A stretch of DNA of 64,000 nucleotides from Thiobacillus sp. (GTDB lineage: Bacteria; Pseudomonadota; Gammaproteobacteria; Burkholderiales; Thiobacillaceae): contig JAIBEI010000050.1 in the NCBI GenBank assembly GCA_019459055.1, positions 124,001 to 188,000 on the forward strand. Reading direction: 5' to 3'. The position numbers and the translations under genes were made by a program. The number at the start of each line of letters is the position of its first letter. Position 1 is the stretch's first letter. Positions 5,314 through 23,472 of this stretch are shown here, in pieces. The notes below the pieces were generated by a model. It had not been told where the DNA came from. It searched no databases and worked only from the letters and a program-made list of their open reading frames with translations.

Positions 5314-5395
5314 TGAAAATCCTTTTATCCGCGAAGGGCGAAGAAACGCGAAGAAACGTGAAGGAAAACAGGGGAAGCCAGGGAATCGCTAATTT

Positions 5396-5533
5396 GTCAT
5401 TGCGAGGAGCGCAGCGACGCGGCATACGATTCCACATGGGCTTCAGCCCATAGTGGATCGAAATCCTTTAGGGCAATCCAGAAATGCCCGCTTAATCAAA
5501 TACGCTGGATTGCTTCGCTGCGCTCGCAATGAC
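5396..5533. repeat. Inverted-repeat element (CATTGCGAG type) with a nested 51-nt element
   Basis: The left arm GTCATTGCGAGGAGCGCAG (from 5396) is the complement of the right arm CTGCGCTCGCAATGAC (ending 5533). A second pairing, GGCAATCCAG with CTGGATTGC, is restored only if the 51 bases inside the left arm are removed. This looks like a MITE of the widely dispersed CATTGCGAG class, used here as the landing site for the nested element. The rest of the 5314-5595 gap holds short GCGAAG-rich repeats and no gene. Confidence 0.7.
5422..5474 (+). repeat. 51-nt palindromic element, copy 1 (intergenic)
   Basis: Starts GCATACGATTCCACA, has the hairpin tip TGGGC-TTCA-GCCCA, then TAGTGGATC and ends TCCTTTAGGGC. 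The flanking MITE sequence shows the boundaries: removing the 51 bases from ATACGA to GGGC rejoins ...GCGGC to AATCCAG, leaving one GC, so a 2-base GC direct repeat brackets the insert. Confidence 0.85.
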
Positions 5534-5595
5534 AGCCATAAATTAATCAACGCTTCGCGCCCCTTCGCGTCCCTCGCGGACAGGTTTTTCCCGAA

Positions 5596-7047
5596 TCACA
5601 ACAAAATAATGTCGTACTGCTCCTGCGGATAGGTGGTCTCGACCTGCATCGACACCGGCTTGCCGATGAAATCGATGAGTTGGGCAAGACTGTCGGATTC
5701 CTCGTCGAGGAACAGGTCGATCACGTTCTGCGAGGCGACGATGCGGTATTCGCGCGCGTCGAACTGGCGCGCTTCGCGCAGGATTTCGCGCAACACGTCG
5801 TAGCACACGGTCTGCGCGGTCCGGATTTCGCCGCGTCCGGCGCAGGTGGGGCAGGGTTCGCACAGGATGTGTGCCAGGGACTCGCGGGTGCGCTTGCGCG
5901 TCATTTCCACCAGTCCCAGCGCGGAGAAGCCACTGACGGTGGTGCGGGTGGGGTCGCGCGCCAAGGTTTTTTTCAGCTCGGTCAACACCGCTTCCTGGTG
6001 CCCGGCATTGTCCATGTCGATGAAGTCGATGATGACGATGCCGCCGAGGTTCCTGAGGCGCAGCTGGCGCGCGATGGATTGCGCGGCTTCGAGGTTGGTC
6101 TTGAAGATGGTGTCGTCAAAGTTGCGCGCGCCGACGAAGCCACCGGTGTTGACGTCGACGGTGGTCAGCGCCTCGGTCTGGTCGATGATGAGGTAGCCGC
6201 CTGATTTGAGGTCGACGCGCCGCCCCAGTGCCTTGGCGATTTCCTCCTCGATGGCGTGCAGGTCGAACAGCGGCCGGTCGGCGCCGTAATGCTGAAGCTT
6301 GTCGAGCACCGCGGCCGTATAGTTCTGCGCGAATTCGGCCATGCGCTGATAGGTTTCGCGCGAATCGATGAGAATGCGGCTGGTATCGCGATTGACGAAA
6401 TCGCGCAGCACCCGCAGCGACAGGTCGAGATCCTGGTACAGCAGGCACGGCGCCGCGCAGTTGCCGCGCGACTGGATGCTGCTCCACAGCCGCCGCAGGT
6501 AGTCGATGTCGGCCTGCATTTCGGCGTCTTCCGCAGTCTCGGCCATGGTGCGCACGATGAAGCCGCCGGTGGCGTCTTCCGGCATCAGCCGATGCAGTTT
6601 CTGGCGCAACTGCTCGCGCTCTTCCTCGCCTTCGATCTTCTGCGAAATGCCGATGTGGCTTTCCTGCGGCAGATACACCAGATAGCGCCCGGCGAAGCTG
6701 ATCTGGGTGGACAGCCGCGCACCCTTGGTGCCGAGCGGGTCCTTGATCACCTGCACCATCAGGCTCTGGCCCTCATGCAGAATCTGCTCGATCGGGCGCT
6801 CGGGTTCGGCACCGTGACGCTCTTCCCAGATGTCGGCAACATGCAGGAAGGCTGCACGTTCCAGGCCGATGTCGATAAAGGCCGACTGCATGCCTGGCAG
6901 CACGCGCACTACGCGCCCCATGTAAAGGTTGCTCACCAGCCCGCGGCACTGCGCGCGTTCGATGTGCAGTTCCTGCACCGAGCCCAGGTGCAGCACGGCG
7001 ACGCGGGTCTCCTGCGGGGTGACGTTGACGAGGATTTCTTCGCTCAT
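5596..7047 (-). CDS. rng: Ribonuclease G
   Basis: Endoribonuclease of the RNase E/G family, which matures the 5' end of 16S rRNA and cuts mRNAs. The 483-residue length fits RNase G, since it lacks the long scaffold tail of RNase E. An S1 RNA-binding domain lies at about 35-125; the catalytic metal ligands are in IVIIDFIDM and DVNTGGFVG, and the zinc-link cysteines are in CEPCPTCAGRG. It is last in the run leuS to rng, 21 bases after maf. The maf-rng order is common in proteobacteria. Confidence 0.95.
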   Translation of the reverse strand: MSEEILVNVTPQETRVAVLHLGSVQELHIERAQCRGLVSNLYMGRVVRVLPGMQSAFIDIGLERAAFLHVADIWEERHGAEPERPIEQILHEGQSLMVQVIKDPLGTKGARLSTQISFAGRYLVYLPQESHIGISQKIEGEEEREQLRQKLHRLMPEDATGGFIVRTMAETAEDAEMQADIDYLRRLWSSIQSRGNCAAPCLLYQDLDLSLRVLRDFVNRDTSRILIDSRETYQRMAEFAQNYTAAVLDKLQHYGADRPLFDLHAIEEEIAKALGRRVDLKSGGYLIIDQTEALTTVDVNTGGFVGARNFDDTIFKTNLEAAQSIARQLRLRNLGGIVIIDFIDMDNAGHQEAVLTELKKTLARDPTRTTVSGFSALGLVEMTRKRTRESLAHILCEPCPTCAGRGEIRTAQTVCYDVLREILREARQFDAREYRIVASQNVIDLFLDEESDSLAQLIDFIGKPVSMQVETTYPQEQYDIILL

Positions 7048-7068
7048 GACGGAATGGCCCGCAATACT

Positions 7069-7680
7069 TCAGATAGCAAGGCCGAAGGCTCTCAATAAAA
7101 TGGACGTGTCGTATAACGGCAAACCCATGACGCCGCTGTAGCTGCCGTCGACATGTTCGACAAATGCGCCGGCGCGCCCCTGGATGGCGTAGGCGCCGGC
7201 CTTGCCGAGATATTCGCCGGTTTCCAGGTAGCGCGCGATGGTCACGGCATCGAGCGCGGCGAACCGGACCCGGCTGGACGACAGGCGCAGTTCCATCCGC
7301 TCGCCATGCTGCACCGCCACCGCGGTGTGCACCTGGTGCTCGCGGCCGGACAGGCGCTTCAGCATGGCCTCGGCCTCGGTGCGGATGGCCGGCTTGCCGA
7401 GAATGGCGCCGTCCACTTCGACCACCGTATCCGCACCCAGCACCGGAAAGCGCAGCAGGTGGCGCGCATCCACCGCGTGCCAGCCGCAGGCGGCCTTTTC
7501 GGCCGCCATGCGCTGCACGAAGTCGGTCGCGGCCTCGCCGGCGTGCGGGATTTCGATAACGTCCATGCGGCCACGCACGGCGCGCAGCGGCAGCACGTCG
7601 AAGGCAACCCCGATCTGCTTCAGCAGGTCTCGCCGACGCGACGACTGCGAAGCCAGATAAATCCGTTTATCAACCAGCAT
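7069..7680 (-). CDS. maf: Maf-family nucleotide pyrophosphatase
   Basis: Cleaves non-canonical or modified nucleoside triphosphates to monophosphates, a house-cleaning and septum-related function. The 203-residue protein starts with the substrate loop [14 protein letters not shown], and the catalytic Asp is in [11 protein letters not shown]. The motif set matches Maf/YhdE (dTTP/UTP type) at least as well as YceF, but substrate choice cannot be fixed by eye. It sits between rlmH and rng in the same orientation with small gaps, so it is probably co-transcribed. Confidence 0.92.
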
Positions 7681-7698
7681 GTTTCTCGTTATCTCCCC

Positions 7699-8169
7699 TC
7701 AATCCCGATGGTAGGGATGTCCCTTGATAATGCATACGGCACGATATAACTGCTCGACCAGCAGCACCCGCGCCAGCGCATGCGGCAAGGTCAGTTTCGA
7801 CAGTCCCAGCAATTTGCCGGCACGCGCTTTCACGCTGTCGGCGAGGCCGTCCGCCCCACCGATCACGAACGCCGGCGAAACCCCCTCGGCCATCCAGCCC
7901 TGGAGCCAGGCGGCCAGTTCGCGCGTGGTCACTTGCGCGCCGCGCTCGTCGAGCACCACCGGCACACAGCCGGCAGGCAGCGCCGCCAGAATGCGCTCGG
8001 CCTCCAGCTGCCGCGCCCGCGCGCCGTCCTCCCCCGCCACCCGATGCCCTGGCTTGATTTCGGTCAGCGTAAGCGGCAGATCGGGCGGCATGCGGCGAAC
8101 ATAGTCGTCGCAGCCCGCATCGATCCAGCCGGGCATCTTGTGGCCGACTGCGATCAGGTGCAGTTTCAA
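7699..8169 (-). CDS. rlmH: 23S rRNA pseudouridine-1915 N3-methyltransferase
   Basis: SPOUT-class methyltransferase acting on helix 69 of 23S rRNA in assembled ribosomes. At 156 residues it has the usual length. The SAM-binding trefoil-knot motifs FVIGGADGL and the C-terminal LLVEQLYRAVCIIKGHPYH are intact. It follows rsfS directly (the rsfS stop at 8170 abuts its start), as in most proteobacteria. Confidence 0.95.
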   Translation of the reverse strand: MKLHLIAVGHKMPGWIDAGCDDYVRRMPPDLPLTLTEIKPGHRVAGEDGARARQLEAERILAALPAGCVPVVLDERGAQVTTRELAAWLQGWMAEGVSPAFVIGGADGLADSVKARAGKLLGLSKLTLPHALARVLLVEQLYRAVCIIKGHPYHRD

Positions 8170-8529
8170 TTAATGGTCTGTTTGTATATGTCGGGCGCGT
8201 GCCGCTTCGGCCGCACCCCACAACTCTTCCAGATTGTAATGCGCGCGCGTGGCAGGCAGCATCACATGGACGATCACGTCGCCGAGGTCGAGCAGCACCC
8301 ACTCGCCGGTATCTTCGCCTTCCATGTTGCCGACGTATTCGTCGGCTTCCTTCATCTTGACGCGCACATTGTCGGCGAGTGCGCGGGTTTGACGATTGGA
8401 CGTGCCGCTGGCGATTACCATGCGCTCAAACAGCGCGGTGAGCTTGCCGGTGTCGAGCACGGTGATGTCTTGCGCCTTGACGTCTTCAAGGGCGGCGACG
8501 ATCAGTTTGATTTTGTCTTCGATTTTCAT
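8170..8529 (-). CDS. rsfS: Ribosomal silencing factor RsfS
   Basis: Binds ribosomal protein uL14 and blocks subunit joining during starvation. It is 119 residues from the ATG at 8529; the open frame extends further upstream, but that part is the shadow of nadD. The family signature ERMVIASGTSNRQTRALADN is present, followed by GEDTGEWVLLDLGDVIVHVM. The start overlaps the nadD stop by 4 bases, giving the conserved nadD-rsfS-rlmH order. Confidence 0.94.
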   Translation of the reverse strand: MKIEDKIKLIVAALEDVKAQDITVLDTGKLTALFERMVIASGTSNRQTRALADNVRVKMKEADEYVGNMEGEDTGEWVLLDLGDVIVHVMLPATRAHYNLEELWGAAEAARARHIQTDH

Positions 8530-9254
8530 GGGGATAGGTAAAGTTGGTGTTCGTAAATATAGTCGAGCACGGCGTCGGGCAGCAGATAACGGGCGCTGCC
8601 GTGCCGTGCCAGGGTGTCGCGGATGGCGGTTGCCGAAATATCCAGCGGCGTCGTCTGCCGCAACAGCACCGAGCCAGCCGGGCCGGAGACCGGACCGTCG
8701 GTTGGCTGCCGTTGCGAAACTTCCTTTTTCAAAATCTCCGGCATGGCATCGGACTGCAGCGGCCGCGCGCCGGGACGCGCGGCCACCGCAATATGCGCCA
8801 GCCCGAACAGCTGCCGCCATTCGTGCCAGCTGGGCAAACCGAAAAATGCATCCCCCCCCAGCAGCAGCCACAGCGGCTGCTCAAAACCCAGTTCGGCGCG
8901 CAAGGCCGCCAGCGTGTCGACCGTGTAGCTCGGGCGCGGGCTCTCCACTTCGCGCGCATCCAGCACGAAGCGCGGATTGCCGGCAATCGCGCGGCGCACC
9001 ATCTCCAGCCGATGGCCGGCGGCGGTGCGCGGTGTGCCACGGTGCGGCGGCTGCCCGGCGGGGATGAACCGCACCTGCTCCAGGCCAAGCCCTTCGGCCA
9101 TTTCCTCGGCCAGCCGCAGATGGCCGAAATGGATGGGGTCGAAGGTGCCGCCCATCACGCCGATGGCGTGGTGGGGGTGAGGGGTGTCCGCAAGGGATAC
9201 CGTCCCAGGCGCTGACCGCGCCAGTGACATAAGGGGTGAGGGGTGAGGGTTCAT
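8526..9254 (-). CDS. nadD: Nicotinate-nucleotide adenylyltransferase
   Basis: Makes deamido-NAD from nicotinate mononucleotide and ATP in the cytoplasm. The nucleotidyltransferase signature GGTFDPIHFGH and the C-terminal ISATAIRDTL are intact. The start is unclear: from the ATG at 9254 the protein is 242 residues, with about 30 extra N-terminal residues rich in Pro/His that come from 7-base GTGAGGG repeats. Starts close to the VMGGTFDP segment (a GTG or ATG near 9160) would give the usual family length. It is coupled to rsfS downstream. Confidence 0.92.
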   Translation of the reverse strand: MNPHPSPLMSLARSAPGTVSLADTPHPHHAIGVMGGTFDPIHFGHLRLAEEMAEGLGLEQVRFIPAGQPPHRGTPRTAAGHRLEMVRRAIAGNPRFVLDAREVESPRPSYTVDTLAALRAELGFEQPLWLLLGGDAFFGLPSWHEWRQLFGLAHIAVAARPGARPLQSDAMPEILKKEVSQRQPTDGPVSGPAGSVLLRQTTPLDISATAIRDTLARHGSARYLLPDAVLDYIYEHQLYLSP

Positions 9255-9291
9255 GCGCCCACCCTCACCCCTATCGTCTCACGCCTCACCG
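9171..9291. repeat. GTGAGGG-type 7-base repeats around the nadD start
   Basis: Units of GGGGTGA occur at 9175-9186 and 9233-9250. Their complement (CCCTCACCCC, CACGCCTCAC) lies at 9260-9291, so the block can fold back on itself. The first two tracts are translated if nadD starts at 9254. Confidence 0.6.
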
Positions 9292-9297
9292 TTCTGC

Positions 9298-10578
9298 TCA
9301 TCCGCGCACGTGGCCATCCCCCAGCACCACCCATTTCTGGCTGGTCAGCCCTTCCAGGCCGACCGGGCCACGGGCGTGGATCTTGTCGGTGGAGATGCCG
9401 ATCTCGGCGCCGAGACCGTATTCGAAACCATCGGCGAAGCGGGTCGATGCGTTGACCACCACGCTGGCCGAATCGACCTCGCGCAGGAAGCGGCGCGCGC
9501 GGCCGTAATCCTCGGTGACGATGGCGTCGGTGTGCTGCGAGCCGTGGGTGTTGATGTGGGTCATCGCGGCGTCGAGGTCGTCGACCACCTTGACCGCGAT
9601 GATGGGGCCGAGATATTCCTCGGTCCAGTCGGCTTCGACCGCGGCTTTCAATTTGTCCGCCGCGATGCCGACGCCCTGCATGATCGCCAGCGCTTCCGGG
9701 CAGGCGCGCATCTCGACGCCCTTGCCGGCGAGCATGCGGCCGATCTCGGGCAGCGCGACGGCGGCAATGCCGCGCGCCACCAGCAGCGACTCGGTGGTGT
9801 TGCAGGTGCCGTAGCGCTGGGTCTTGGCGTTTTCGACGATCTTCACCGCCTTGGCGAGGTCGGCACGGTCGTCGACGTAGACGTGGCAGTTGCCGTGCAG
9901 GTGCTTGATCACCGGCACCCGCGCCTCGCCGGTGATGCGCTCGATCAGCCCCTTGCCGCCGCGCGGCACGATGACGTCGACGTAGTCCTTCATGGTGATG
10001 AGTTCGCCCACCGCGGCGCGGTCGGTGGTCTCGATCACCTGCACCACGGTTGCGGGCAGCCCGGCGGCTTCCAGCCCTTCGCGCACACAGGCGGCGATCG
10101 CCTGGTTGGAGTGCAGCGCCTCGGAGCCGCCGCGCAGGATCGCCGCGTTGCCGGATTTCAGACACAGCCCGGCGGCGTCCGCCGTCACGTTGGGGCGCGC
10201 TTCGTAAATGATGCCGATGACGCCGAGCGGCACCCGCATCTTGCCGACCTGGATGCCGGAGGGCCGGTACTTGAGGCCGTCGATTTCGCCGACCGGGTCG
10301 GGCAGCGCTGCGATCTGCTCCAGGCCTTCGGCCATGCCGGCCACCGCTTTTTCGTTAATCTGCAGGCGGTCGAGCAGCGCAGCGTCGAGCCCGCCGGCGC
10401 GCGCCTGCTCCATGTCGCGCGCGTTCGCCTCCAGCAGTTTGGCGGCATCGCGCCGGATCGCCGCGGCCATCGCCAGCAGGGCGCGATTCTTCTGATTGGT
10501 GTCGGCGCGGGCAATCGCACGCGAGGCTTCGCGCGCCTGCCGGCCGACCGTCTGCATGTAAGTTTTAACGTCCATCAT
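9298..10578 (-). CDS. proA: Gamma-glutamyl phosphate reductase
   Basis: Second step of proline synthesis: NADPH-dependent reduction of glutamyl-5-phosphate to the semialdehyde. Translation starts at one of two adjacent ATGs (10578 or 10575) after a GGAAAAAG ribosome-binding site; the longer upstream frame is the shadow of holA. The protein is about 426 residues. The catalytic Cys is in [12 protein letters not shown], and the aldehyde-dehydrogenase-fold motifs [11 protein letters not shown] and [12 protein letters not shown] are present. The start overlaps the holA stop (ATGA). Confidence 0.95.
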
Positions 10579-11650
10579 CTTTTTCCATTGCCTACCGGTT
10601 GAGCCAGATTCATGCCCACACGCAACAGCGTGTCCCAGGGATCGCCCACCCGCTCCAGCCCCTTGGCCTGGCGGTCGATCAGCGCCAGATCGGCCAGCGC
10701 AGTTTCGATCTGCGCCAGCCCCAGGCGCTTCACTGCCCGCTCGATCTGCGGCGCGCGCTGCTTGTCGCGCCCCCACAGCGTCCGCGTCAGGCCGGACAAG
10801 CTTTCACCCTGTGTCACCGCCAATTTTAGCCTGAGCAGCAGGCCCACCGCCGACGTCACCTGCCACAGGATCGCCGGCACGGCCTCGCCCGCATCCCTGA
10901 GATCGGTCACGATCTGCGCAAAGCGCGCGCTGTCGCCCGCATACAGCGCATCCGCGAGGGCGTCGGCTTCCAGCCGGCTGACGTCGACCACGGCATGCTC
11001 GACGTCGGTCAGCGTCACCGCCCTAAAGGACTCCGATCCACTAGGCGCTAAAGCGCCTGTGGAATCGTATGCCCCCGGCGGCAGCAGCAGCGCGAGCTTG
11101 TCGATTTCCTGCTGCGCCGCCAGCAGATTGCCCTCGACCTGGTCGGCCAGAAATTCCAGCGCGGCGCGGTCGGCGCGCAGCCCCTGCCTGGCGAGGCGGC
11201 GGTCGATCCAGGCGGGCAGCTGGGCGCGTTCGATCGGCCGCGCCTCGACCACCACGCCGGCGGCCGCCAGCGTGGTGAACCAGCGGCTTTTCATGGCTTT
11301 CCAGTCCAGACCCGGCAGGCTGATCAGAGTGAGCGTGTCGGCCGGAAGCCTGGCGGCATAGGCCTCCAGCGCCTTGGCGCCATCGATGCCGGGCTTGCCG
11401 GAAGGGACGCGGATTTCGGTCAGGCGGCGCTCGGCGAACAGCGAGAGGTTGTCACCGCCGGCAAAAATGCTCTGCCAGTTGTAGCGCCCCTGCACGTTGT
11501 AGACGTTGCGCTCGCTGTGCCCGGCCACACGCGCCGCCGCGCGGATGGCGTCACACGCTTCCTGCGCCGCCAGCGGCTCGTCGCCGACCACCACGTAGAG
11601 CGAGGCAAGGCCACGCGCAAGCTGGTCGGGCAGACGGTCGGCCGCGATGT

Positions 11651-11654
<4 letters not shown>
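10575..11654 (-). CDS. holA: DNA polymerase III delta subunit, carrying an in-frame 17-residue insert
   Basis: Clamp-loader subunit that opens the beta sliding clamp. The 359-residue protein matches HolA throughout ([18 protein letters not shown] near the N-terminus; [19 protein letters not shown] in domain II). The start is a TTG whose last bases overlap the lptE stop (TTGA). Residues about 195-212 ([18 protein letters not shown]) are encoded by a copy of the 51-nt element. Removing the element rejoins LLPPG to [11 protein letters not shown], the expected HolA sequence, so the insert lies at the junction between the second and third domains and presumably leaves the protein functional. Confidence 0.93.
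11020..11072 (-). repeat. 51-nt palindromic element, copy inside holA
   Basis: Full-length copy read on the minus strand. Its hairpin tip is GGCGC-TTTA-GCGCC, different from the TGGGC/GCCCA and CGTGC/GCACG tips of other copies but still fully paired. It is translated as [18 protein letters not shown]. Confidence 0.9.
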
Positions 11655-14763
<3,109 letters not shown>

Positions 14764-14920
14764 TCAAGGCGGCGATTATACCCGCCCGCCCGGCCGCATC
14801 GGCCGAACGCGCGCGATGAGCCACGCCATCTGGCGTCTGTTGCACGGGGCATTTATCATCCCCGGACGCCCCCCCAAACGTGCCCGGCCGGTTTGCTTTC
14901 ATCCCCCACAGGAGTCCCTC

Positions 14921-15412
14921 ATGAAAACGCTGCTTCCGCTTGCCCTGCTTGCCGCCTCCCTGCCTGCCATGGCCGCCCAGCCCGACGTGCTGCCGGTCAG
15001 GCAGATCGGACTGGAACTGGCGCGCGACATCGCCATGGCCGCGATCGAGGCCTGCCGCCAGGACGGCTACAACGTTGCCGCCGTGGTGCTTGACCGCGCC
15101 GGCAACCTCCAGGTGGCGTTGCGCGACACCCTGGCGGCGCGCCACACTCTGGAAATCGCCGAGCGCAAGGCCGGCATGAGCATCATGTCCGGCAGCGGCT
15201 CCGGCGAATTCCGCGCCGCCCGCGGCGACATCCGCCCCGAGCTCAACCACATCGACGGCCTCATCGTCATGGACGGCGCGTTGCCGATCCGCGCCGCCGG
15301 CAGCCTGATCGGCGCCGTCGGAGTATCGGGCGCGCCAGGCGGCGAAAAAGACGCTGCCTGCGCCACAGCTGCGCTGAAAAAAGTCGAGGAAAGGCTGGAG
15401 TTCGCCCTGTAG
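14921..15412 (+). CDS. Secreted GlcG/HbpS-family (DUF336) protein
   Basis: 163 residues starting at an ATG preceded by AGGAG. A Sec signal peptide (MKTLLPLALLAASLPAMAA) is cleaved near residue 19, so the protein is exported to the periplasm. The rest is one GlcG/HbpS domain (ARDIAMAAIEACRQDGYNVAAV...), ending in the typical GSLIGAVGVSGAPGG...DAACA. Family members bind heme or small ligands; no specific ligand can be given. It precedes phosphoribulokinase but the 214-base gap with repeats argues against a tight operon. Confidence 0.8.
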   Translation: MKTLLPLALLAASLPAMAAQPDVLPVRQIGLELARDIAMAAIEACRQDGYNVAAVVLDRAGNLQVALRDTLAARHTLEIAERKAGMSIMSGSGSGEFRAARGDIRPELNHIDGLIVMDGALPIRAAGSLIGAVGVSGAPGGEKDAACATAALKKVEERLEFAL

Positions 15413-15482
15413 GACCGGCCAGCCGGGCTTTCGCACGCGGGTGACAAGCCCTGCCCCGCGCGGGGAGTGCGTGGTTGTTGGC

Positions 15483-15535
15483 GCATACGACTCCACATGG
15501 GCTTCAGCCCATAGTGGATCGGAGTCCTTTAGGGC
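15483..15535 (+). repeat. 51-nt palindromic element, copy upstream of phosphoribulokinase
   Basis: Differs from copy 1 at two or three positions only (GACTCC for GATTCC, GGAGTCC for GAAATCC) and has the same tip TGGGC-TTCA-GCCCA. It lies 91 bases before the prk start codon, inside the region where a prk promoter is expected. Confidence 0.9.
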
Positions 15536-15545
15536 CTCAGCGCCC

Positions 15546-15575
15546 TACTACCACGGCCTGCCCCTTGCGGGTAAA
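15546..15575 (-). repeat. Repeat family B, copy 1
   Basis: Minus strand reads ACCCGCAAGGGGCAGGC then CGTGGTAGTAG. Related copies are at 40937-40962 and 45681-45711. It lies just after the 51-nt element copy in front of prk. Confidence 0.6.
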
Positions 15576-15626
15576 ATGCGGCGTTTTCGCCCAATTTTCA
15601 CCCATCCTTCAGGGAGTCCCAACATC

Positions 15627-16514
15627 ATGTCCAAGAAGCATCCCGTCATTGCGGTCACGGGTTCGTCCGGCGCCGGCACCACCACCGTCAAGCGCGCGTT
15701 CGAGCACATCTTCTTCCGCGAAAAAATCAACGCCGCCGTGATCGAAGGCGACAGCTTCCACAGCCTGTCGCGCGTCGAATTCAAGGAAGCCGTGAAGAAA
15801 GCCGAAACCGAAGGAAACATGTCGTTCAGCCACTTCGGCCCGCAGTCCAACCGCTTCGACAAGCTGGCCGAACTGTTCGAAACCTATGGCAAAACCGGCA
15901 GCGGCAAAAAGCGCTACTACATCCACAGCGACGAAGAAGCCGCCGAGCACAACAAGCGCCTCAGCACCAGCCTCAATCCCGGTGAATTCACCCCGTGGGA
16001 AGACGTGCCGGCCGGCTCCGACGTGCTGTTTTACGAAGGCCTGCACGGCCTGGTGAAGACCGACGACGTCGACGTCTCCAAGCACGTCGACCTCGGCATC
16101 GGCGTGGTGCCCATCGTCAACCTCGAGTGGATCCAGAAAATCCACCGAGACGGCGCCGAGCGCGGCTATTCGGCCGACGTCATCGTCGACACCATCCTGC
16201 GCCGCATGCCGGACTACGTGAACTACATCACCCCGCAGTTCTCGCGCACCGACATCAACTTCCAGCGCGTCTCCACCGTCGACACCTCCAACCCCTTCAT
16301 CTCCCGCGACATCCCAACGCCGGACGAGAGCTTCATCGTGATCCGCTTCCGCGAGCCCAAGGGCGTCGACTTCCCCTACCTGCTGAACATGATCCAGAAC
16401 TCCTTCATGTCGCGCCGCAACACCATCGTGGTGCCGGGCGCCAAGATGGGCTTCGCCATGGAGTTGATCCTGGCACCGATCATCCAGGACATGATCGCCG
16501 GCAAGGGCAAGTAA
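15627..16514 (+). CDS. prk: Phosphoribulokinase
   Basis: Calvin-cycle enzyme that phosphorylates ribulose-5-phosphate to ribulose-1,5-bisphosphate, the RuBisCO substrate. It is 295 residues from the ATG at 15627, with AGGGAG 11 bases upstream; the longer open frame upstream is repeat DNA. The P-loop is GSSGAGTTTVKRAF, and EGDSFHSLSR and the FYEGLHGL catalytic region are typical of the proteobacterial octameric class I enzyme. It indicates CO2 fixation. RuBisCO and cbbR are not in the window. A strong hairpin terminator follows 21 bases after the stop. Confidence 0.95.
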   Translation: MSKKHPVIAVTGSSGAGTTTVKRAFEHIFFREKINAAVIEGDSFHSLSRVEFKEAVKKAETEGNMSFSHFGPQSNRFDKLAELFETYGKTGSGKKRYYIHSDEEAAEHNKRLSTSLNPGEFTPWEDVPAGSDVLFYEGLHGLVKTDDVDVSKHVDLGIGVVPIVNLEWIQKIHRDGAERGYSADVIVDTILRRMPDYVNYITPQFSRTDINFQRVSTVDTSNPFISRDIPTPDESFIVIRFREPKGVDFPYLLNMIQNSFMSRRNTIVVPGAKMGFAMELILAPIIQDMIAGKGK

Positions 16515-16535
16515 GAAAGAAGGTTTGCCTGAATG

Positions 16536-16566
16536 AAAAACGGAGCCTGCGGGCTCCGTTTTTGTT
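16536..16566. terminator. Bidirectional rho-independent terminator after prk
   Basis: Stem CGGAGCC / GGCTCCG (16541-16547 with 16552-16558), loop TGCG, flanked by AAAAA before and TTTTT after. It can stop prk transcription on the plus strand and the OmpA-lipoprotein transcript on the minus strand. Confidence 0.92.
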
Positions 16567-16591
16567 TTGCGTATGCCTGAACAAGCGATCG

Positions 16592-17257
16592 TCAGCGTGC
16601 GGGCTCTGCCACAAAAATCTCGACGCGGCGGTTTTTCGCACGGCCGTCTATCGTGTTGTTGTCAGCGATCGGTTCGCGCGAACCGCGACCATCGATGGCG
16701 ATGCGGTTTGTCGCCACCCCGCGCGCAACGAGGTAATCGCGCGTCGAGGCGGCGCGATTGACCGAAAGCGGGTTATTGATCGCATCCGTGCCGGTGCTGT
16801 CTGTGTGGCCGATGATAGTCACCATCGTCACCGGGTTTTGATTCAGGGTGGTGGCGAAGCGATCGAGGATCGGACGCAGGTTCGATTTGATTTCATAGCG
16901 GTTGGTGTCAAACGAAACATCGCTCGGGATGTCCAGCTTGAGCTGGTTGTCGGCGGTCTGACTCACGCTCACGCCGGTTCCCTCGGTGGCCTGCTCCATC
17001 TCGGCCTTCTGTTTCTCCATGTGCTTCGACCACATGTAGCCACCACCCGCACCCACTGCCGCGCCGATCGCCGCGCCGGTCGCGGCGCTTTTGCCCTTGT
17101 TGCCGCCGGCTGTCGCGGCGCCAATTACCGCTCCGGCAACTGCGCCAATCCCCGCGCCTGTGCCGGTGGTTTTTTGCGTTTCGGACATATTGGCGCAACC
17201 GGAAATACCGCTGAGGCCAAATGCCACGGCACTAAGAGAAGCAATGATTCTTTTCAT
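16592..17257 (-). CDS. OmpA-family lipoprotein with a glycine zipper
   Basis: 221 residues. The signal peptide ends in a lipobox (SGISGC, Cys 21). Residues about 30-75 form a glycine-zipper segment (GTGAGIGAVAGAVIGAA, TGAAIGAAVGAGGG). Residues about 105-218 are an OmpA C-terminal peptidoglycan-binding domain (SFDTNRYEIKSNLRPIL, GHTDSTG, NPLSVNRAASTRDYLV, NRRVEIFV). Its layout resembles YiaD of E. coli. It likely anchors the outer membrane to peptidoglycan. Monocistronic. Confidence 0.88.
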   Translation of the reverse strand: MKRIIASLSAVAFGLSGISGCANMSETQKTTGTGAGIGAVAGAVIGAATAGGNKGKSAATGAAIGAAVGAGGGYMWSKHMEKQKAEMEQATEGTGVSVSQTADNQLKLDIPSDVSFDTNRYEIKSNLRPILDRFATTLNQNPVTMVTIIGHTDSTGTDAINNPLSVNRAASTRDYLVARGVATNRIAIDGRGSREPIADNNTIDGRAKNRRVEIFVAEPAR

Positions 17258-17408
17258 TCGATGACTCCAATTTCTTTAAAAAATTTCGTTGTAGGTACGC
17301 GTGCAAAGCCTCTGCGTCTGCCTTGTCCGAACAGTCCAAGTATGCACCAATTTCACGACCGACCGCTTACCGGGAAACAATCGTGTCCGGCCCCATACCT
17401 ACTCACGC

Positions 17409-19778
17409 TCACCAGACCGCGGGATAACGCGTGCGCACGAATGCCTCGAATTCGTCGGCCGGCTTCGGCTTGCTGAAGTAATAGCCCTGCACTTCGTCGC
17501 ACCCATGCTCGCGCAGGAACGCCAGCTGCGCTTCGGTCTCGACGCCCTCTGCAATGGTCTTCAGGCCCAGGCCTTTCGCCAGGCTGATGATGGCGACGAC
17601 GATGGCCCGGTCCTCCGAATCTTCGCCGATGTCGCGCACAAAGGACTGGTCGATCTTGAGCTTGTAAACCTTGAAACGCTTCAGATAGCTCAGCGACGAA
17701 TAGCCGGTGCCGAAATCGTCGATCGCCAGGCGGATGCCGCACGCGTGCAGGCGATCTATCACCGCGATGGCCGCGGGCGCATCCTCCATGGCCACCCCTT
17801 CGGTCAGTTCCAGTTCCAGATGCTGCGGTGCCAGCTGTTCTTCTTCGAGAATCTGCGTGACCAGCTCCGGCAAGTGCGGGTGACGGAACTGGACGGCAGA
17901 CAGGTTCACCGCCATCACCATCGGCGCGAGGCCGGCTTCCATCCACGCTTTCATCTGCCGTACCGCACTGCGCAGCACCCATTCCCCGATTTGCAGGATC
18001 TGGCCATTTTCTTCGGCGATCGGGATGAAGTCGGCCGGTGCAATCAAGCCCAGCTCGGGATGCTGCCAGCGCACCAGCGCTTCCACGCCGACGATGCGCC
18101 CGTCGCGCAGCGAGATTTGCGGCTGATAGTGCATCAGCAACTGCTTGCGCTCCAGCGCGCGGCGCAGGTCGTTTTCCATGTGCAGGTTGTGGGCCGAACG
18201 CGCCTGCATTTCCGCGGTGAAAAAGCGGTAGGTATTGCGGCCGTCGTGCTTGGCACGATACATGGCGGCGTCCGCGTATTGGGACAATACTTCAAAATCC
18301 CCGCCGTCGCTGGGATACAGGGCGATGCCGATGGACAGCGTCGCGGTCAACTCGAAACCCTCGATCTGATACGGTTGCGCGACGGCTTCCAGCAACTTCC
18401 CGGCCACATGCGCCGCGCCGTCGGCATTGGTGCCGGGCAGGATCAGAACGAACTCATCCCCGCCCTGGCGCGAAACGGTGTCGATTTCGCGCACGACAGC
18501 TTTCAGGCGGGCTGCGACCGCAATCAGCAAGGCGTCGCCGATACAGTGTCCCAGTGTGTCGTTGACGTTCTTGAAATGATCGAGGTCGACGAACATGACG
18601 ACCAGCTGGGTATGGTGGCGCCGGGCGGCACTCAGTGCATGGCTGACGCGATCGCTGAGCAAGGCCCGGTTCGGCAACCCTGTGAGCGGATCGAAATGCG
18701 CCAGCCGCTGAATGTGCGCCTGGGCAGCCTTGTGCTGGGTGATATCGGCGAACGTCGCGATCGCACCCACCACCACGCCATCGGCAACGATGGGGTTTGA
18801 CCAGTACTCGACCGGTATTGCCGTGCCGTCTTTGCGCCAGAACACCTCGTCGGTCACATTGATTGACTGATTGGACAGATAGGCGCGATACATTTTGCAT
18901 TCGTTTTCCGGATAGTGGCTGCCATCGACATAAGAATGGTGAATGAGCGCATGGGAATTCTTGCCCAGCACCTCGTTTTCATCCTGATAGCCCATTAGTC
19001 TCAGGAAGGTCCGGTTGACGAAGGTGAAATTGCCCTCAAAATCGACCCCGTAGACTGCTTCAGCCATCGAATCGAGCAGCAGTTGCAGGCGCTCGCGTGA
19101 GTCACGCAAGGCCTGCTCCGCCCGTTTTCGCTCGGTGATGTCCTCGCCCGAAGCGAGCACGCCGCTGATCCTGTCCGTCTCGTCCCGCAAGACCGCGTTA
19201 TGCCATGCCACCTCGCGTTCCTCGCCGCCGCAGGTCAATATTGCATTTTCCATGTATTCGACAAGGGGAATCTCGCCCGCCAGCATCTGGATGATCGACG
19301 CCCGGACCCCGTTTCGCATGCGTTCGGGCAGGAAATGCTCGACCCAGTCTTTTCCCAGAATATCCGCCTCGGCTGCACCCAGCATTTCGCAGCCCTTGCG
19401 ATTGACGAGTTGCACCCGCCCTTCCGCATTGATTGCAATCAGCATCACGCCGGCGACATTCAGGTATTGCTGCGCCTGCTGCCGGGATTGCAGAAACGCC
19501 TGCTCCGCCTGGGCGCGTTTGGTGATGTCGCGGGAGATGCCAAGTACCCCGGTGGGCCTGCCTTCGCCATCCAGCATGGGCGTCTTGATCGTCTCGAACA
19601 ATCTCCGACTGCCATCCTCGACGAAAGTCAGCCATTCCTCGTTGATGATGGGGTTGCCGGACAGCATTGCCTGGCGATCGTGCTCGCGAAAGAAGTCGGC
19701 CTGCGCGCGATCGACAAAATCGTAATCGCTCTTGCCGACGATTGCGGCCTCTCTGGCGCCGAAAAAGCGCTCAAACAT
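17409..19778 (-). CDS. C-terminal part of a frameshifted sensor: PAS x3-4, GGDEF, EAL
   Basis: Cyclic-di-GMP turnover protein fragment, 789 residues from the first Met, although the open frame reaches back to about 19876. It holds at least three PAS domains with PAC motifs, then a GGDEF domain with an intact SRQGGDEFVLIL and an EAL domain with intact GVEALVRWQHPE, LELTEG and DDFGTGYSSLSYLKRF. Both synthase and phosphodiesterase active sites therefore look functional. Upstream, the sensing domain and membrane segments lie in another frame (19853-20782). The two join smoothly if one base (T in GAATTACTC) is restored near 19875, so they are parts of one gene of about 1,120 codons. Confidence 0.88.
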   Translation of the reverse strand: MFERFFGAREAAIVGKSDYDFVDRAQADFFREHDRQAMLSGNPIINEEWLTFVEDGSRRLFETIKTPMLDGEGRPTGVLGISRDITKRAQAEQAFLQSRQQAQQYLNVAGVMLIAINAEGRVQLVNRKGCEMLGAAEADILGKDWVEHFLPERMRNGVRASIIQMLAGEIPLVEYMENAILTCGGEEREVAWHNAVLRDETDRISGVLASGEDITERKRAEQALRDSRERLQLLLDSMAEAVYGVDFEGNFTFVNRTFLRLMGYQDENEVLGKNSHALIHHSYVDGSHYPENECKMYRAYLSNQSINVTDEVFWRKDGTAIPVEYWSNPIVADGVVVGAIATFADITQHKAAQAHIQRLAHFDPLTGLPNRALLSDRVSHALSAARRHHTQLVVMFVDLDHFKNVNDTLGHCIGDALLIAVAARLKAVVREIDTVSRQGGDEFVLILPGTNADGAAHVAGKLLEAVAQPYQIEGFELTATLSIGIALYPSDGGDFEVLSQYADAAMYRAKHDGRNTYRFFTAEMQARSAHNLHMENDLRRALERKQLLMHYQPQISLRDGRIVGVEALVRWQHPELGLIAPADFIPIAEENGQILQIGEWVLRSAVRQMKAWMEAGLAPMVMAVNLSAVQFRHPHLPELVTQILEEEQLAPQHLELELTEGVAMEDAPAAIAVIDRLHACGIRLAIDDFGTGYSSLSYLKRFKVYKLKIDQSFVRDIGEDSEDRAIVVAIISLAKGLGLKTIAEGVETEAQLAFLREHGCDEVQGYYFSKPKPADEFEAFVRTRYPAVW

Positions 19779-19852
19779 CGGATTGCAGCTGAGATAGACC
19801 CCGTCCGTATTCTTCAGCCAGACCAGATCGGGAAGCGCATCGAGCGTGGCTT

Positions 19853-20782
19853 TCAGATTGTGCTGGGCATCGAGTATTCGGCAGTGCGCTGGGCAACCCT
19901 CGCTTCGAGCAAGTGTTTACTCGCTTTCATCTCGACGAACAGCTTTGCCAGATAACCCAGCATCAGGCTGAAAAGCAGCCCCAGCGCCAGCTTGAACGAG
20001 AGTCCGAGCGGATCGGCCCAGCCCTTGACCGGGGCGAGACTCAGTGTCCAGCTTGCATTGGGTTCTTGCAGGGCTTGATTCATCGGTTCGATCAGGAGCG
20101 CGGGTGAGGAGCGGGCAATGACCTGTTTTTTTTCGCTGTCCGGGTGGATACGCCAGAGTTCATAGGCCAGGCCTTGCTCGTCCAGACGGGACATATGGGC
20201 CAAATTCAGGCCCTCGGGCAGGCGTATGGCCACCAGGGCGAAGCCCCAGAAAAAGGGCTTGCCCTGGCTGTCGTCGAGAAACACCGGCAAGCGTCCGATC
20301 ACTCCCATCCCACCCTGCGCCAGTTCCAGCGGGCCAGCCAGCGTGAGCTTGCCGCTGTCGCGGGCGTGAAGGGATTCCTTGCGTTGTGTCGGGGCGGTCA
20401 ACAGGTCCAGGCCGATGACCGCCTCGTTGCCGGACATCGGCATGACGTGCCGGACAACCCCGCCAGGCGCCAGCGCCAAGTGGGAGACGCCGGGGTAAAA
20501 CGGCAACATGGCGCCGGCAATCGCTTCAAATTGGGGGACGCTGCCGTTGCCCTGCCGCACCAGCGCTGCCAGGGCATGCGCTGCATACATCACATGCTGG
20601 AGGCTGCGTTCGACCTCATGGGCATGGTAGCCGGCCACCCGGGCAACGTGCTCGCGCTCGTGTTGGCGGGCATGCTGGTCCAGCTGCCAGACAAGCAATC
20701 CCGACAGGATGGCAGCAACCAGAAAAACGAGCCACCCCACCATCAGCGGAACGATTGGGTTACGGGTGTTTGATGCTGCCAT
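19853..20782 (-). CDS. N-terminal part of the frameshifted sensor: membrane anchor and periplasmic CHASE-like domain
   Basis: 309 residues. A transmembrane helix at about 11-32 (VGWLVFLVAAILSGLLVW) is followed by a periplasmic CHASE-type sensor region (HEVERSLQHVMYAAHALAALV... FWGFALVAIRLP) and a second helix at about 263-283. The frame then runs into ARVAQRTAE and ends prematurely with YSMPSTI. In the neighbouring frame the sequence continues as LDAQHNLKATLDALPDLVWLKN, a PAS-domain start, so a single-base loss at 19874-19877 breaks the gene. This may be a true mutation or a sequencing error. Confidence 0.85.
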   Translation of the reverse strand: MAASNTRNPIVPLMVGWLVFLVAAILSGLLVWQLDQHARQHEREHVARVAGYHAHEVERSLQHVMYAAHALAALVRQGNGSVPQFEAIAGAMLPFYPGVSHLALAPGGVVRHVMPMSGNEAVIGLDLLTAPTQRKESLHARDSGKLTLAGPLELAQGGMGVIGRLPVFLDDSQGKPFFWGFALVAIRLPEGLNLAHMSRLDEQGLAYELWRIHPDSEKKQVIARSSPALLIEPMNQALQEPNASWTLSLAPVKGWADPLGLSFKLALGLLFSLMLGYLAKLFVEMKASKHLLEARVAQRTAEYSMPSTI

Positions 20783-20911
20783 TGCGTGTACCGGTTGTCG
20801 CAGGATGGCGGGACGAATAGGCTGCCGCTTTGTTTTCGCGAGAGAGAGACTCCGTCAGATCCCTAAGGCGAATATAGTTCGTTTTGCCGGTGGGTGTTGG
20901 CCTGTGCCGGG

Positions 20912-21163
20912 TCAGACCACCGAAAACCCCACCAGGGCGATCTCGTCGCCATCCTTGATCGGCGCGGACTTTTCTGCGAACTGCTTGTTGATGGTGATAT
21001 TGAGCTTGGGGTTGCCGAGCAGCATTTTCTTCCACATCTCGCCGCGCCTGGACAGCACGAACAGCAGGCGCTCGACGTCGGTCACGTCGGGCGGCAGGGG
21101 GATTTCGTCGGCGGCCATGCCGAGCGTATCCACCAGGTCGCCGAAAAACAAAATCTTCACCAT
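20912..21163 (-). CDS. MoaD/ThiS-like ubiquitin-fold protein lacking the terminal Gly-Gly
   Basis: 83 residues with a beta-grasp MoaD-type pattern (MVKILFFGDLVDTLG start, KPIKDGDEIAL-like end). MoaD and ThiS work as sulfur carriers through a C-terminal Gly-Gly thiocarboxylate. Here the chain ends GFSVV, so that chemistry is not possible without processing or a different role. No moaE neighbour is in view. The gene is divergent from uvrD with only 47 bases between starts. Confidence 0.65.
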   Translation of the reverse strand: MVKILFFGDLVDTLGMAADEIPLPPDVTDVERLLFVLSRRGEMWKKMLLGNPKLNITINKQFAEKSAPIKDGDEIALVGFSVV

Positions 21164-21210
21164 CCCCAGCCCTTTATAATCTGCATTCGATCGCCCGATT
21201 CTACCCCCGT

Positions 21211-23472
21211 ATGTCTGCCTCCCTGCTGGAAAACCTCAACCCCGAACAGCGCGCCGCGGTGACGCTGCCGCACGAGTCCGCGCTGATCCTGGCGGGCGCC
21301 GGCTCGGGCAAGACGCGGGTGCTGACCACGCGCATGGTGTGGCTGATCCAGACCGGCCAGGTGTCGCCGCTGGGAGTGTTGGCGGTGACCTTCACCAACA
21401 AGGCGGCGAAGGAAATGATGACGCGCGTCTCGGCGATGCTGCCGATCAACACGCGCGGCATGTGGGTCGGCACTTTCCATGGCCTCGCCAACCGCCTGCT
21501 GCGCACGCATTACCGCGAGGCGGGACTGCCGCAGTCGTTCCAGATTCTCGATTCGCAGGACCAACTGTCGGCGATCAAGCGGCTGATGAAGGCGATGAAC
21601 GTCGACACCGAGAAGTACGAGCCGAAGAAGGTGCAGCGCTTCATCAACGGCAACAAGGAGGCCGGGCTGCGCGCGCGCGACGTCGAGGCGTTCGACGACT
21701 ACTCGATGCGCATGACCGAGCTGTACGAGGCCTACGACGCGCAATGCCAGCGCGAGGGGGTGGCGGATTTCCCCGAACTGCTGCTGCGCGCCTACGAACT
21801 GCTGTACCGCAACGAGCCGCTGCGCCAGCATTACCAGGACCGCTTCCGCCACATCCTGATCGACGAGTTCCAGGACACCAACACGCTGCAGTACCGCTGG
21901 CTGAAATTGTTCGCCGGCCCGCGCACGGCGCTGTTCGCGGTAGGCGACGACGATCAGTCGATCTACGCGTTCCGCGGCGCCAACACCGCCAACATGGCCG
22001 AGTTCGAGCGCGAATTCGCGCACGGCAACGTGATCAAGCTGGAGCAGAATTACCGCAGCCACGGCAACATCCTCACCGCCGCCAACACGCTGATCTCGCA
22101 GAATGCGCACCGCCTCGGCAAGAACCTGTGGACGGCGGAAGGCGAAGGCGAGCCGATCCGCGTGTTCCACGCCTATTCCGACCAGGAGGAGGCGAGCTTC
22201 GTGGTCGACGAGGTGCGCGCGCTCAACCGCGAGGGGATGAACCTGTCCGACATGGCGCTGTTGTACCGCTCCAACGCGCAGTCGCGGGTGCTGGAGCACG
22301 CGCTGTTTTCAGCCAGCGTGCCGTATCGGGTGTATGGCGGGCTGCGCTTTTTCGAACGCCAGGAAGTCAAGCACGCACTGGCCTACCTGCGCCTCCTGAC
22401 CAACCCGGAAGACGACGGCGCGTTTCTGCGGGTGGTGAACTTCCCCACCCGCGGCATCGGCGCGCGCACCCTGGGACAGCTGGCCGACGGCGCTGCGCGC
22501 GCAGGCACGAGCCTGTGGCAGGCGGCCTGCACCGCCGGCGGCAAGGTGGCCGGCTTCGCCAAGCTGATCGAGGACATCAAGCAGGTCACCGCCGACCTGC
22601 CGCTGGCCGAGGCGATCGACCATGTGATCGAGGCCAGCGGGCTGGCCGACTACTACCGCGCCGACAAGGAAGGCGCCGACCGTCTGGAGAACCTCAACGA
22701 ACTGATCAACGCGGCCGCGCTGTTTGCCGAGGAATCCGAGGCGGCAACCTACGACGCCGTCGACGCTTCAGCGCCTGCCGGAGCGGAGTCCTTCCGGGCG
22801 CTCGACACCTTTCTCGCCCACGCCGCATTGGAAGCCGGCGAGCACCAGGCCGGCGCCGGCCACGACGCGCTGCAACTGATGACGGTGCATGCCGCCAAGG
22901 GGCTGGAGTTTCACGCGGTGTTCATCACCGGGCTGGAGGAAGGGCTGTTCCCGCACGAGCAGAGTGCATACGATTCCACACGTGCTTCAGCACGTAGTGG
23001 ATCGGAGTCCTTTAGGGCGAACGAGGAAAGCGGCCTGGAGGAAGAGCGGCGGCTGATGTATGTGGCGATCACCCGCGCCCGGCGCCGCCTGTATCTGTCG
23101 CACGCGCAGTCGCGCATGCTGCACGGACAGACCCGCTACAGCCTGCCGTCGCGCTTTCTGGACGAACTGCCGGAGCAGGTCTTGCTCAACCTCAACCGCC
23201 GCAACGAGCCGGCCTATTCGTCAGGCAGCCCGAAGCCCGCTGAAGGGTATAAAGGCGCGAGCGGCTACAGTGCGCCCGCAGCACCGCGCAGCCCACAGAC
23301 AGGCAACGACACCGGCTACAAGGTGGGGCAGAGCGTCGTCCATGCCAAGTTCGGCACCGGCATCATCATCGACTTCGAGGGCCGCGGCGCTGACGCGCGG
23401 GTGCAGGTGAAATTCCGCAACGCAGGGAGCAAGTGGCTGGCGCTGGCGTACGCCAAGCTGGCGCCGGCCTGA
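21211..23472 (+). CDS. uvrD: UvrD/Rep-type DNA helicase II with two in-frame 51-nt-element inserts
   Basis: 3'-5' superfamily 1A helicase for nucleotide-excision and mismatch repair. It is 753 residues. Walker A GAGSGKTRVLTTR, DEFQDTN (motif II), GDDDQSIYAFRGA (motif III) and MTVHAAKGLEF, EEERRLMYVAITRAR (motifs V/VI) are intact, and a C-terminal Tudor-like tail (VHAKFGTGIIIDFEGRG) is present. Residues about 586-603 ([18 protein letters not shown]) are a clear element insert just before motif VI. Residues about 513-530 (TYDAVDASAPAGAESFRA) look like an older, decayed copy. The start is the ATG at 21211. Confidence 0.95.
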   Translation: MSASLLENLNPEQRAAVTLPHESALILAGAGSGKTRVLTTRMVWLIQTGQVSPLGVLAVTFTNKAAKEMMTRVSAMLPINTRGMWVGTFHGLANRLLRTHYREAGLPQSFQILDSQDQLSAIKRLMKAMNVDTEKYEPKKVQRFINGNKEAGLRARDVEAFDDYSMRMTELYEAYDAQCQREGVADFPELLLRAYELLYRNEPLRQHYQDRFRHILIDEFQDTNTLQYRWLKLFAGPRTALFAVGDDDQSIYAFRGANTANMAEFEREFAHGNVIKLEQNYRSHGNILTAANTLISQNAHRLGKNLWTAEGEGEPIRVFHAYSDQEEASFVVDEVRALNREGMNLSDMALLYRSNAQSRVLEHALFSASVPYRVYGGLRFFERQEVKHALAYLRLLTNPEDDGAFLRVVNFPTRGIGARTLGQLADGAARAGTSLWQAACTAGGKVAGFAKLIEDIKQVTADLPLAEAIDHVIEASGLADYYRADKEGADRLENLNELINAAALFAEESEAATYDAVDASAPAGAESFRALDTFLAHAALEAGEHQAGAGHDALQLMTVHAAKGLEFHAVFITGLEEGLFPHEQSAYDSTRASARSGSESFRANEESGLEEERRLMYVAITRARRRLYLSHAQSRMLHGQTRYSLPSRFLDELPEQVLLNLNRRNEPAYSSGSPKPAEGYKGASGYSAPAAPRSPQTGNDTGYKVGQSVVHAKFGTGIIIDFEGRGADARVQVKFRNAGSKWLALAYAKLAPA
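22747..22799 (+). repeat. 51-nt palindromic element, decayed copy inside uvrD
   Basis: Aligns over its whole length with the other copies. TACGA, CGCTTCAGCGCC and CGGAGTCCTT are kept, while the outer stem has drifted to GC-rich codons. It is read in the same frame as the other genic copies (YDA...ASAPAGAESFRA). Confidence 0.7.
22966..23018 (+). repeat. 51-nt palindromic element, intact copy inside uvrD
   Basis: Full match to the intergenic copies except for the tip, here CGTGC-TTCA-GCACG. Taking out the 51 bases rejoins EQSA to NEESGLEEERR, the usual helicase sequence before motif VI. Confidence 0.92.

Follow-up and report, generated by a model that had tools for sequence, protein, structure and literature searches.

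A 51-nucleotide palindromic and probably mobile element inserted in frame into genes of Thiobacillus

The stretch analyzed here, a 64-kb part of contig JAIBEI010000050.1 of Thiobacillus sp. with 64% GC (the window, taken at its full length), contains copies of a short palindromic element both within and between genes. Two genes serve as hosts, namely uvrD (21211..23472, + strand; Pfam UvrD-helicase, 4.5e-84, and UvrD_C, 4.4e-75) with two copies, and holA, which encodes DNA polymerase III delta (10575..11654, − strand; Pfam DNA_pol3_delta, 8.6e-9, residues 20-138), with one. A preliminary description of the window had reported five copies, and all five sites read as claimed there. Four of them show the layout GCATACGAYTCCAC-stem-TTYA-stem-GTGGATCGRARTCCTTTAGGGC, at 5422-5474 (+), 11020-11072 (−), 15483-15535 (+), and 22966-23018 (+). 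The insert proper comprises 51 nt in each case: 5423..5473 (+), intergenic, between G5422 and C5474; 11021..11071 (−), in frame in holA, with the minus strand being the sense direction of the gene; 15484..15534 (+), intergenic, within the hairpin of a GCGTGGTTGTTG...CCACGGCC repeat; and 22967..23017 (+), in frame in uvrD (AYDSTRASARSGSESFR). As had been reported, the in-frame copies in uvrD and holA both give AYDST...SGSESFRA. The fifth site, 22747..22799 (+), is located in a variable linker of uvrD (TYDAVDASAPAGAESFR) and is probably a decayed copy.

Both intergenic copies are nested within other intergenic palindromic repeats. The host of the copy at 5423..5473 is a palindromic repeat, GTCATTGCGAGG...GCAATCC, which occupies about 5396-5421 and 5474-5481 and has empty forms at other loci; by its look, this repeat, the target of the element at 5422, belongs to the CGTC class of repetitive extragenic palindromic (REP) sequences. 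The host repeat of the copy at 15484..15534 likewise exists in empty and filled forms. It represents a second intergenic repeat family, GCGTGGTTGTTG-hairpin-CAACCACGGCC, which was seen at 15441-15560 of the window and at three further loci (L057, L066, and L107), often in tandem and with variable hairpin tips.

The 22-base 3' end of the element, including that of the copy at 5423..5473, has four matches in the window with at most 3 mismatches, compared to none in 100 shuffles. A covariance model, R1, the scores of which are mostly sequence scores, gave 78–84 bits for the four strong copies (E 2e-21 to 9e-20) and 24.3 bits for the site at 22747-22799 (E 5.7e-5). Because the orthologue of this site at another locus (L056) scores higher, 33.3 bits, it is taken as a probable decayed copy; thus, of the two copies that had been claimed for uvrD, the one at 22966-23018 stands and the other is accepted as probable. 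The uvrD linker around the decayed copy holds unrelated filler in some other species and is short in many relatives. For the four copies, three of which were folded on both strands, each of the seven foldings beat all 200 of its shuffles, with z scores of −3.4 to −4.4. Rfam yielded no match up to E 1 for the stretch 5380-5520.

The complete unit can be written as CATACGAYTCCAC-[variable stem, TTYA loop]-GTGGATCGGAGTCCTTTAGGG, 51 nt in length. The unit is divisible by three in length and has two or three open reading frames out of six. From the loci collected (L001-L157), 158 distinct copies were cut out, with those near locus ends dropped; 133 of the 158 have the standard spacing, and three lack a recognizable 5' end. 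Across 95 distinct 53-mers, the ends are nearly fixed, and stem columns 16-19 and 26-29 vary in pairs. In an alignment of 34 sequences, 92.3% of the cells are paired, a value reached by none of 500 shuffles, and 41 cells are doubly changed compared to a shuffled mean of 12.4, again unmatched in 500 shuffles. The number of pairs changed on both sides, six, was reached by 11 of the 500. Compensatory changes maintain the main hairpin despite the variation of the stem sequence, and therefore it is probably a fold that is recognized. For the 3' mini-hairpin, no double change was found in the 34-sequence alignment; in other families of the order, its sequence and loop are different (TCC-TTTA-GGG and TCCC-CTTGTG-GGG, among others), and judged by eye it can still form. 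Longer forms of the element, of up to about 70 nt, carry an extra mini-hairpin in the loop and occur in 10 distinct contexts.

Forty genomes of the genus were screened for UvrD and HolA (holA was found in 33 of them), and the 30 loci returned for each, the window's own included, were aligned. The 17-residue UvrD insert is present in three of the 30 loci (the own genome, G000, as well as G061 and G063) and missing in 27; at that place, two of the 27 (G013 and G011) have another short insert. The same three genomes also carry the HolA insert, and the other 27 loci show a clean empty site. The alignment with E. coli UvrD (2is1) also has a gap at the insert position. The residues are thus absent from most of the orthologues of both genes in the genus, and neither of the two results named in the preliminary description as speaking against it (no further copies in the genome, or the residues as ordinary sequence in distant genera) occurred. 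Altogether, for 76 of 155 copies the joined flanks had a homologue that spans the junction, a count that includes tandem neighbors and copies in host repeats and hence does not stand for independent empty sites.

The junctions reveal the exact ends. The insert is CATACG...AGGG, placed between G and N without target duplication. That nothing is duplicated follows from targets with a G^A junction, which lack a second GC when filled: relatives with G^A empty sites (L155 for L047; L104 for L109, L133, and L142), diverged to 74–79% identity, correspond to filled sites that read GC at the left junction and GA at the right one. Of the preliminary description of the insert as 51 bases flanked by a GC direct repeat, the length holds; the repeat arises mostly from the target G^C together with the C and G of the element itself. 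Clustering of the sites resulted in 41 clusters, each represented by one site, with G at −1 in 34, G at −3 in 33, and C at +1 in 28 of the 41. The clustering is loose, as a histidine-kinase site and a CTGCCGC repeat are lumped in one cluster of 15 members and both the L090/L117 pair and the trio headed by L011 mix different sites, so that 41 is an undercount of the sites. The target GNG^C is preferred but not strict, with GT, GA, GG, AC, and CC also seen. The element is found in both orientations. Its sites include single-copy genes, other repeats, and positions adjacent to its own 3' end. This end, AGGG^C, resembles the target GNG^C, which would explain the head-to-tail arrays with a period of 51 nt that share one GC; several of these arrays are built from units with different stems. 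For hairpin loops as a general target, five of the 41 sites had a stem of at least 5 compared to 4.2% of the control GC positions (p 0.027), but no excess was present at stems of at least 6, and this candidate preference is too weak to claim.

Upstream of xthA, 18 of 30 Thiobacillus loci have either a single copy or up to five units in an array, at one and the same position about 15 nt in front of the start (L388 and L006 of the own genome, on contig C45, and L382-L411; the exonuclease III identity was assigned by sequence). Several other species have GTACCGCAG or a similar sequence there, an apparent empty site. The units in front of xthA may influence its leader or promoter.

A first scan of 155 copies found 36 with an open scoring frame through the element. 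For a fairer test, the flanks of 111 non-tandem sites were joined and coding was called from the flanks alone; 81 of the joined sites had an open frame of 80 codons, and 27 passed the codon score. At all 27 coding sites, the inserted copy is a multiple of three in length and leaves the frame open, and none of the 27 insertions introduces a stop. By our own grouping, these sites represent 17 independent loci. When three of the window copies were placed at GNGC positions of 32 window genes, the frame stayed open in 27–50% of the cases; for 17 of 17 open loci, the chance is at most about 8e-6 (0.5 to the 17th). The count by frame is thus in line with the idea, already put forward in the preliminary description, that the insert enters genes without shifting the frame. 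The frames used are AYDST.. (+), ALKDSDP.. (−), HTIP.. (+), and one of a longer form. The insertions observed are those that keep the frame, and are predicted to add 17 residues; for the cell, they would mostly be neutral passengers.

In addition to UvrD and HolA, the hosts recognized with Pfam include YicC, HypF, an HI0933-like protein, YhdP, two P-type ATPases, an ABC protein, a nuclease-domain protein, an NADH:quinone oxidoreductase-like protein, MurB, an alpha/beta hydrolase, a peptidase M3, a histidine kinase, a CHAD protein, and an HlyD-like protein. The insert is located within the matched domain in eight hosts (UvrD, YicC, HypF, the HI0933-like protein, YhdP, both ATPases, and the nuclease domain), and in the others outside of it or at its edge. 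Among 19 proteins scanned, L045, L022, L147, and L032 could be assigned to no family, and these four may be spurious frames.

In the trees of both uvrD and holA, G063 is placed outside the group of G000, G061, G006, and G002 (support 0.98 and 0.94). G063 has both inserts, whereas G006 and G002 have neither, though they are nested in the ingroup; their holA genes show exact empty sites. The holA inserts of G000, G061, and G063 share an uncommon stem, AGGCGC/GCGCCT, found in two of the 95 distinct 53-mers, and this argues for one old insertion, which would have been followed by exact losses or by recombination. In uvrD, the inserts of G061 and G063 are identical in genes that are 88% identical, and the insert of G000 differs. 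The data do not separate precise excision, gene conversion, and transfer. In a rather unlikely reading, a dedicated and as yet undescribed recombination system inserts and also precisely removes the 51-nt hairpin, with its own 3' end as the model target; species would then gain and lose, in a clean manner, both the 17-residue segment of the replication and repair proteins UvrD and HolA and the array in front of xthA.

Copies had been expected elsewhere in the genome and in relatives, and this was indeed the case. With the 3' half of the element, 18 matches were obtained in the own genome (2.93 Mb, 51 contigs), compared to none in a reversed control; its R1 matches number 21 at E<=1e-5 or 33 at E<=1, with 150 of 1,111 candidates scored. 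In a search of 60 genomes with the 3' half, the own genome included, 25 had a match; these comprised 23 of 35 congeners and one of 24 genomes from other families (G049), in which the reversed control also gave one match, but which has a clear full-length copy. The titles among 80 of 110 stretches listed were Thiobacillus, metagenome-assembled genomes labelled Sulfuricella, Sulfuriferula, or Hydrogenophilales, and further such genomes labelled only Proteobacteria, Gammaproteobacteria, Betaproteobacteria, or Pseudomonadota. A second model with the correct structure, R2, found the element at E<=1e-4 in 23 of 399 genomes of the order (the own genome included), which belong to nine of 159 genera and to six families; in one of the families (f25), the two matches are weak (29–30 bits). 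The nine listed genomes from other genera of the own family had no R2 match. In a sample of the class, the own genome alone matched among 369 genomes under strict filters with 15 candidates scored per genome. No match was obtained in viral contigs, plasmids, or phages, and carriage by any of these was rejected as an explanation.

One genome, G101, contains seven near-identical copies (L335-L341), six of which tie for the top score, and all seven are located at the same point of a repeat that resembles CCCTCTCCCGC-GCGGGAGAGGG. This pattern suggests either composite spread or a strong site preference.

The preliminary description had drawn a parallel to the Rickettsia palindromic elements (RPEs) of Ogata and co-workers. 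These are described as about 100–150 bp long with terminal inverted repeats of about 12 bp (PMC3767692, PMC10969869, PMC2229807), and their hosts include DNA polymerase III alpha and RecB-family genes (PMC3767692) and uvrB (PMC3733652). The element resembles RPEs in being palindromic and in frame inside conserved genes of which some orthologues lack the insert. However, it is 51 nt long (about 70 nt in the longer forms), its ends, CATACGA and CCTTTAGGG, are not inverted copies of each other, and it has a preferred GNG^C target, inserts in tandem with itself, and resides in free-living Betaproteobacteria. The parallel is therefore valid for the behavior (mobile, palindromic, in frame, with no dedicated transposase found), but not for the length, the ends, and the tag. 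Different RPEs have been described near the same place of orthologous genes (PMC3767692), a pattern that the uvrD site resembles with its 51-nt insert in G000 and an 18-nt insert in G013.

Other small repeats are similar in part. Like the element, CGTC REPs are short palindromes with known intragenic copies; a 2013 survey leaves them without a transposase (PMC3733652), and none is associated with the element in the fetched Y1 and IS110 loci. The element differs in that it has no CGTC tag, ends in CATACG...AGGG (in reverse, CCCTAA...CGTATG), and forms two hairpins in 51 nt instead of one stem of 8–9 bp with a CCA tail. GTAG REPs and their RAYTs (REPtrons) are also single-strand hairpins spread through genomes, some of them intragenic, but the element has no terminal GTAG and no RAYT beside it in the fetched loci. 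Non-autonomous elements of the IS200/IS605 type, such as palindrome-associated transposable elements (PATEs), have no target duplication, a subterminal hairpin, a short 5' target motif, and a target-like 3' end. All four features recur in the element, which is distinguished by the lack of a parent with the same ends in the genome, the lack of a strand bias in a GC-skew proxy, and its length of 51 nt. ERIC/RU-1, RU-2, RU-3, and Correia elements are likewise small repeats, whose open frames can join those of genes in frame; most carry terminal inverted repeats and are flanked by target duplications, and many end in TA (PMC2229807; PMC2759123). The element has neither such repeats nor duplications.

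No published description of the 51-nt element was found in the literature searched, which was mostly that available without subscription. It represents a well-supported and, as far as searched, previously undescribed family of mobile in-frame coding palindromes analogous to RPEs. The preliminary description knew of no such insertions in sulfur-oxidizing Betaproteobacteria. Thauera is a betaproteobacterium. REP-encoded protein regions in Thauera are covered by the 2013 survey (PMC3733652), a caveat to this hint of novelty. The same survey describes REPs within genes for replication and repair in several species and mentions REP-decorated UvrD/REP helicases for tagged REPs in general. The landing of the element in or near such genes (uvrD, holA, and upstream of xthA) repeats this REP and RPE pattern, but may be due to chance. 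In-frame palindromic inserts have mainly been discussed for Rickettsia, the biology of which makes tests hard. In the present, independent family of free-living Betaproteobacteria, the empty sites are exact to the base, a target motif and growth in tandem are seen, and close relatives differ in whether they have the insert, so that two old questions become testable: what moves such elements, and what effect the extra peptide has on the protein.

We consider it highly probable that this is a non-autonomous mobile palindromic element, and infer Y1-type mobilization for it. An enzyme with its gene elsewhere would recognize the hairpin in single-stranded DNA; the most likely candidate is a Y1/HUH transposase related to RAYTs or IS200/IS605. 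The predicted cuts would follow GNG in the target and AGGG at the end of the element, and the cut ends would then be joined without duplication. Single-strand Y1 chemistry, which is established for IS200/IS605 (PMC8266576), fits best because of the missing duplication, the subterminal hairpin, the 5' target motif, and the target-like 3' end; that it in fact moves the element is a tentative proposal, to which we assign somewhat less than an even chance.

Several observations weigh against this explanation. The right cut would fall within the small 3' hairpin, unlike in IS608. Transposition of IS200/IS605 is strand-specific (PMC8266576); the orientation of the element relative to the local GC skew, as a proxy, showed no bias (23 of 41, p 0.53), the same proxy gave 64 of 113 in a larger set, again no bias, and no lagging-strand preference was visible in it. 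None of 54 transposase loci (30 Y1 and 24 IS110) had a Y1 gene flanked by the element; the sole match in the 54 loci (L261) is weak (26 bits) and more than 1 kb away from its Y1 gene. Another set of 33 loci, mostly Y1, contained nothing better than E 0.83. The Y1 loci of the two sets were the best matches from the genus and from 16 copy-carrying genomes. One genome (G359) has nine element matches and no Y1 match. The element is also found at the same place in copies of other repeats, so that the intergenic spread is partly composite, and these copies may have moved together with the host repeat. Among the fetched Y1 and IS110 loci, which do not cover other transposase families, the element has no associated transposase, and for the fetched loci a link to RAYT or IS200 was rejected, as no element stands beside the Y1 genes. 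A parent transposon with the same ends was also rejected, since the own genome has no lone pair of ends: of its 15 exact 5' ends, 14 are within R1 matches, and one belongs to a truncated second unit that follows a complete one.

The own genome contains two RAYT-like Y1 genes (L272 on contig C42 and L302 on contig C4), each surrounded by different repeats of its own. A gene for a RuBisCO-like large subunit, recognized by eye, is located at the C4 locus as well.

An unlikely alternative to Y1 mobilization is a site-specific recombinase that acts on hairpin sites, as the integron integrase does on attC, with circles or single strands recombining at G^C. The missing target duplication, the conserved structure with a variable stem, and the arrays with a period of 51 nt and one shared GC, some of them with units of different stems, would all be expected from it. 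No recombinase is tied to the element, though tyrosine recombinases were not surveyed, and the conserved boxes of attC were not recognized by eye, which is weak evidence.

We attach a similarly low probability to the view that the element is immobile now and that its copies are old, with the present pattern due to vertical descent, gene conversion among copies, and unequal crossing-over in arrays. Decayed and truncated copies do exist, the copy upstream of xthA has one position in 18 of 30 genus loci, and the identical uvrD copies of G061 and G063 in genes of 88% identity are what conversion would give. Nevertheless, several insertions are restricted to certain species and have clean empty sites in close relatives, and the seven near-identical copies of G101 speak against immobility, though all are in one kind of host repeat.

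Still less probable is a miniature relic of an IS110-family transposon, in which a GC core would be common to donor and target and a bridge RNA encoded in trans would guide insertion; such a relic would also have no terminal inverted repeats and a taste for palindromic repeats. GC is indeed found at both junctions of most copies, terminal repeats are missing, and intergenic palindromes are among the targets. However, the core is not strictly kept, as the non-GC targets demonstrate, the 24 fetched IS110 loci contain no element, and the copy-rich genomes G000, G002, and G006 have no IS110 match at E<=0.001, a match that 16 of the 40 genomes do have; for the own genome, the link was rejected on these grounds. 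The weakest reading, that the inserted residues are ordinary UvrD and HolA sequence and the repeats elsewhere a coincidence, is refuted by the absence of the insert from 27 of 30 loci of each gene and is practically negligible, given that the same DNA occurs between genes and in unrelated genes, in three frames and both orientations.

A smaller insert was observed in addition to the 51-nt element. A micro-insert of about 18 nt, CCC-NNNN-GGGCACAAG, is present in the loop of the long element forms, in the 10 contexts mentioned above. It is also found at three places of uvrD in other species (L196, which is the uvrD gene of G013, L194, L195, L200, and L207), one of which is the exact base of the 51-nt insert of G000. 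A search for its motif gave 31 rows, some of them overlapping or chance-like, compared to four for the motif read backward. In the holA gene of G063 (L220), the element itself holds a further in-frame insertion of 21 nt within its 3' hairpin.

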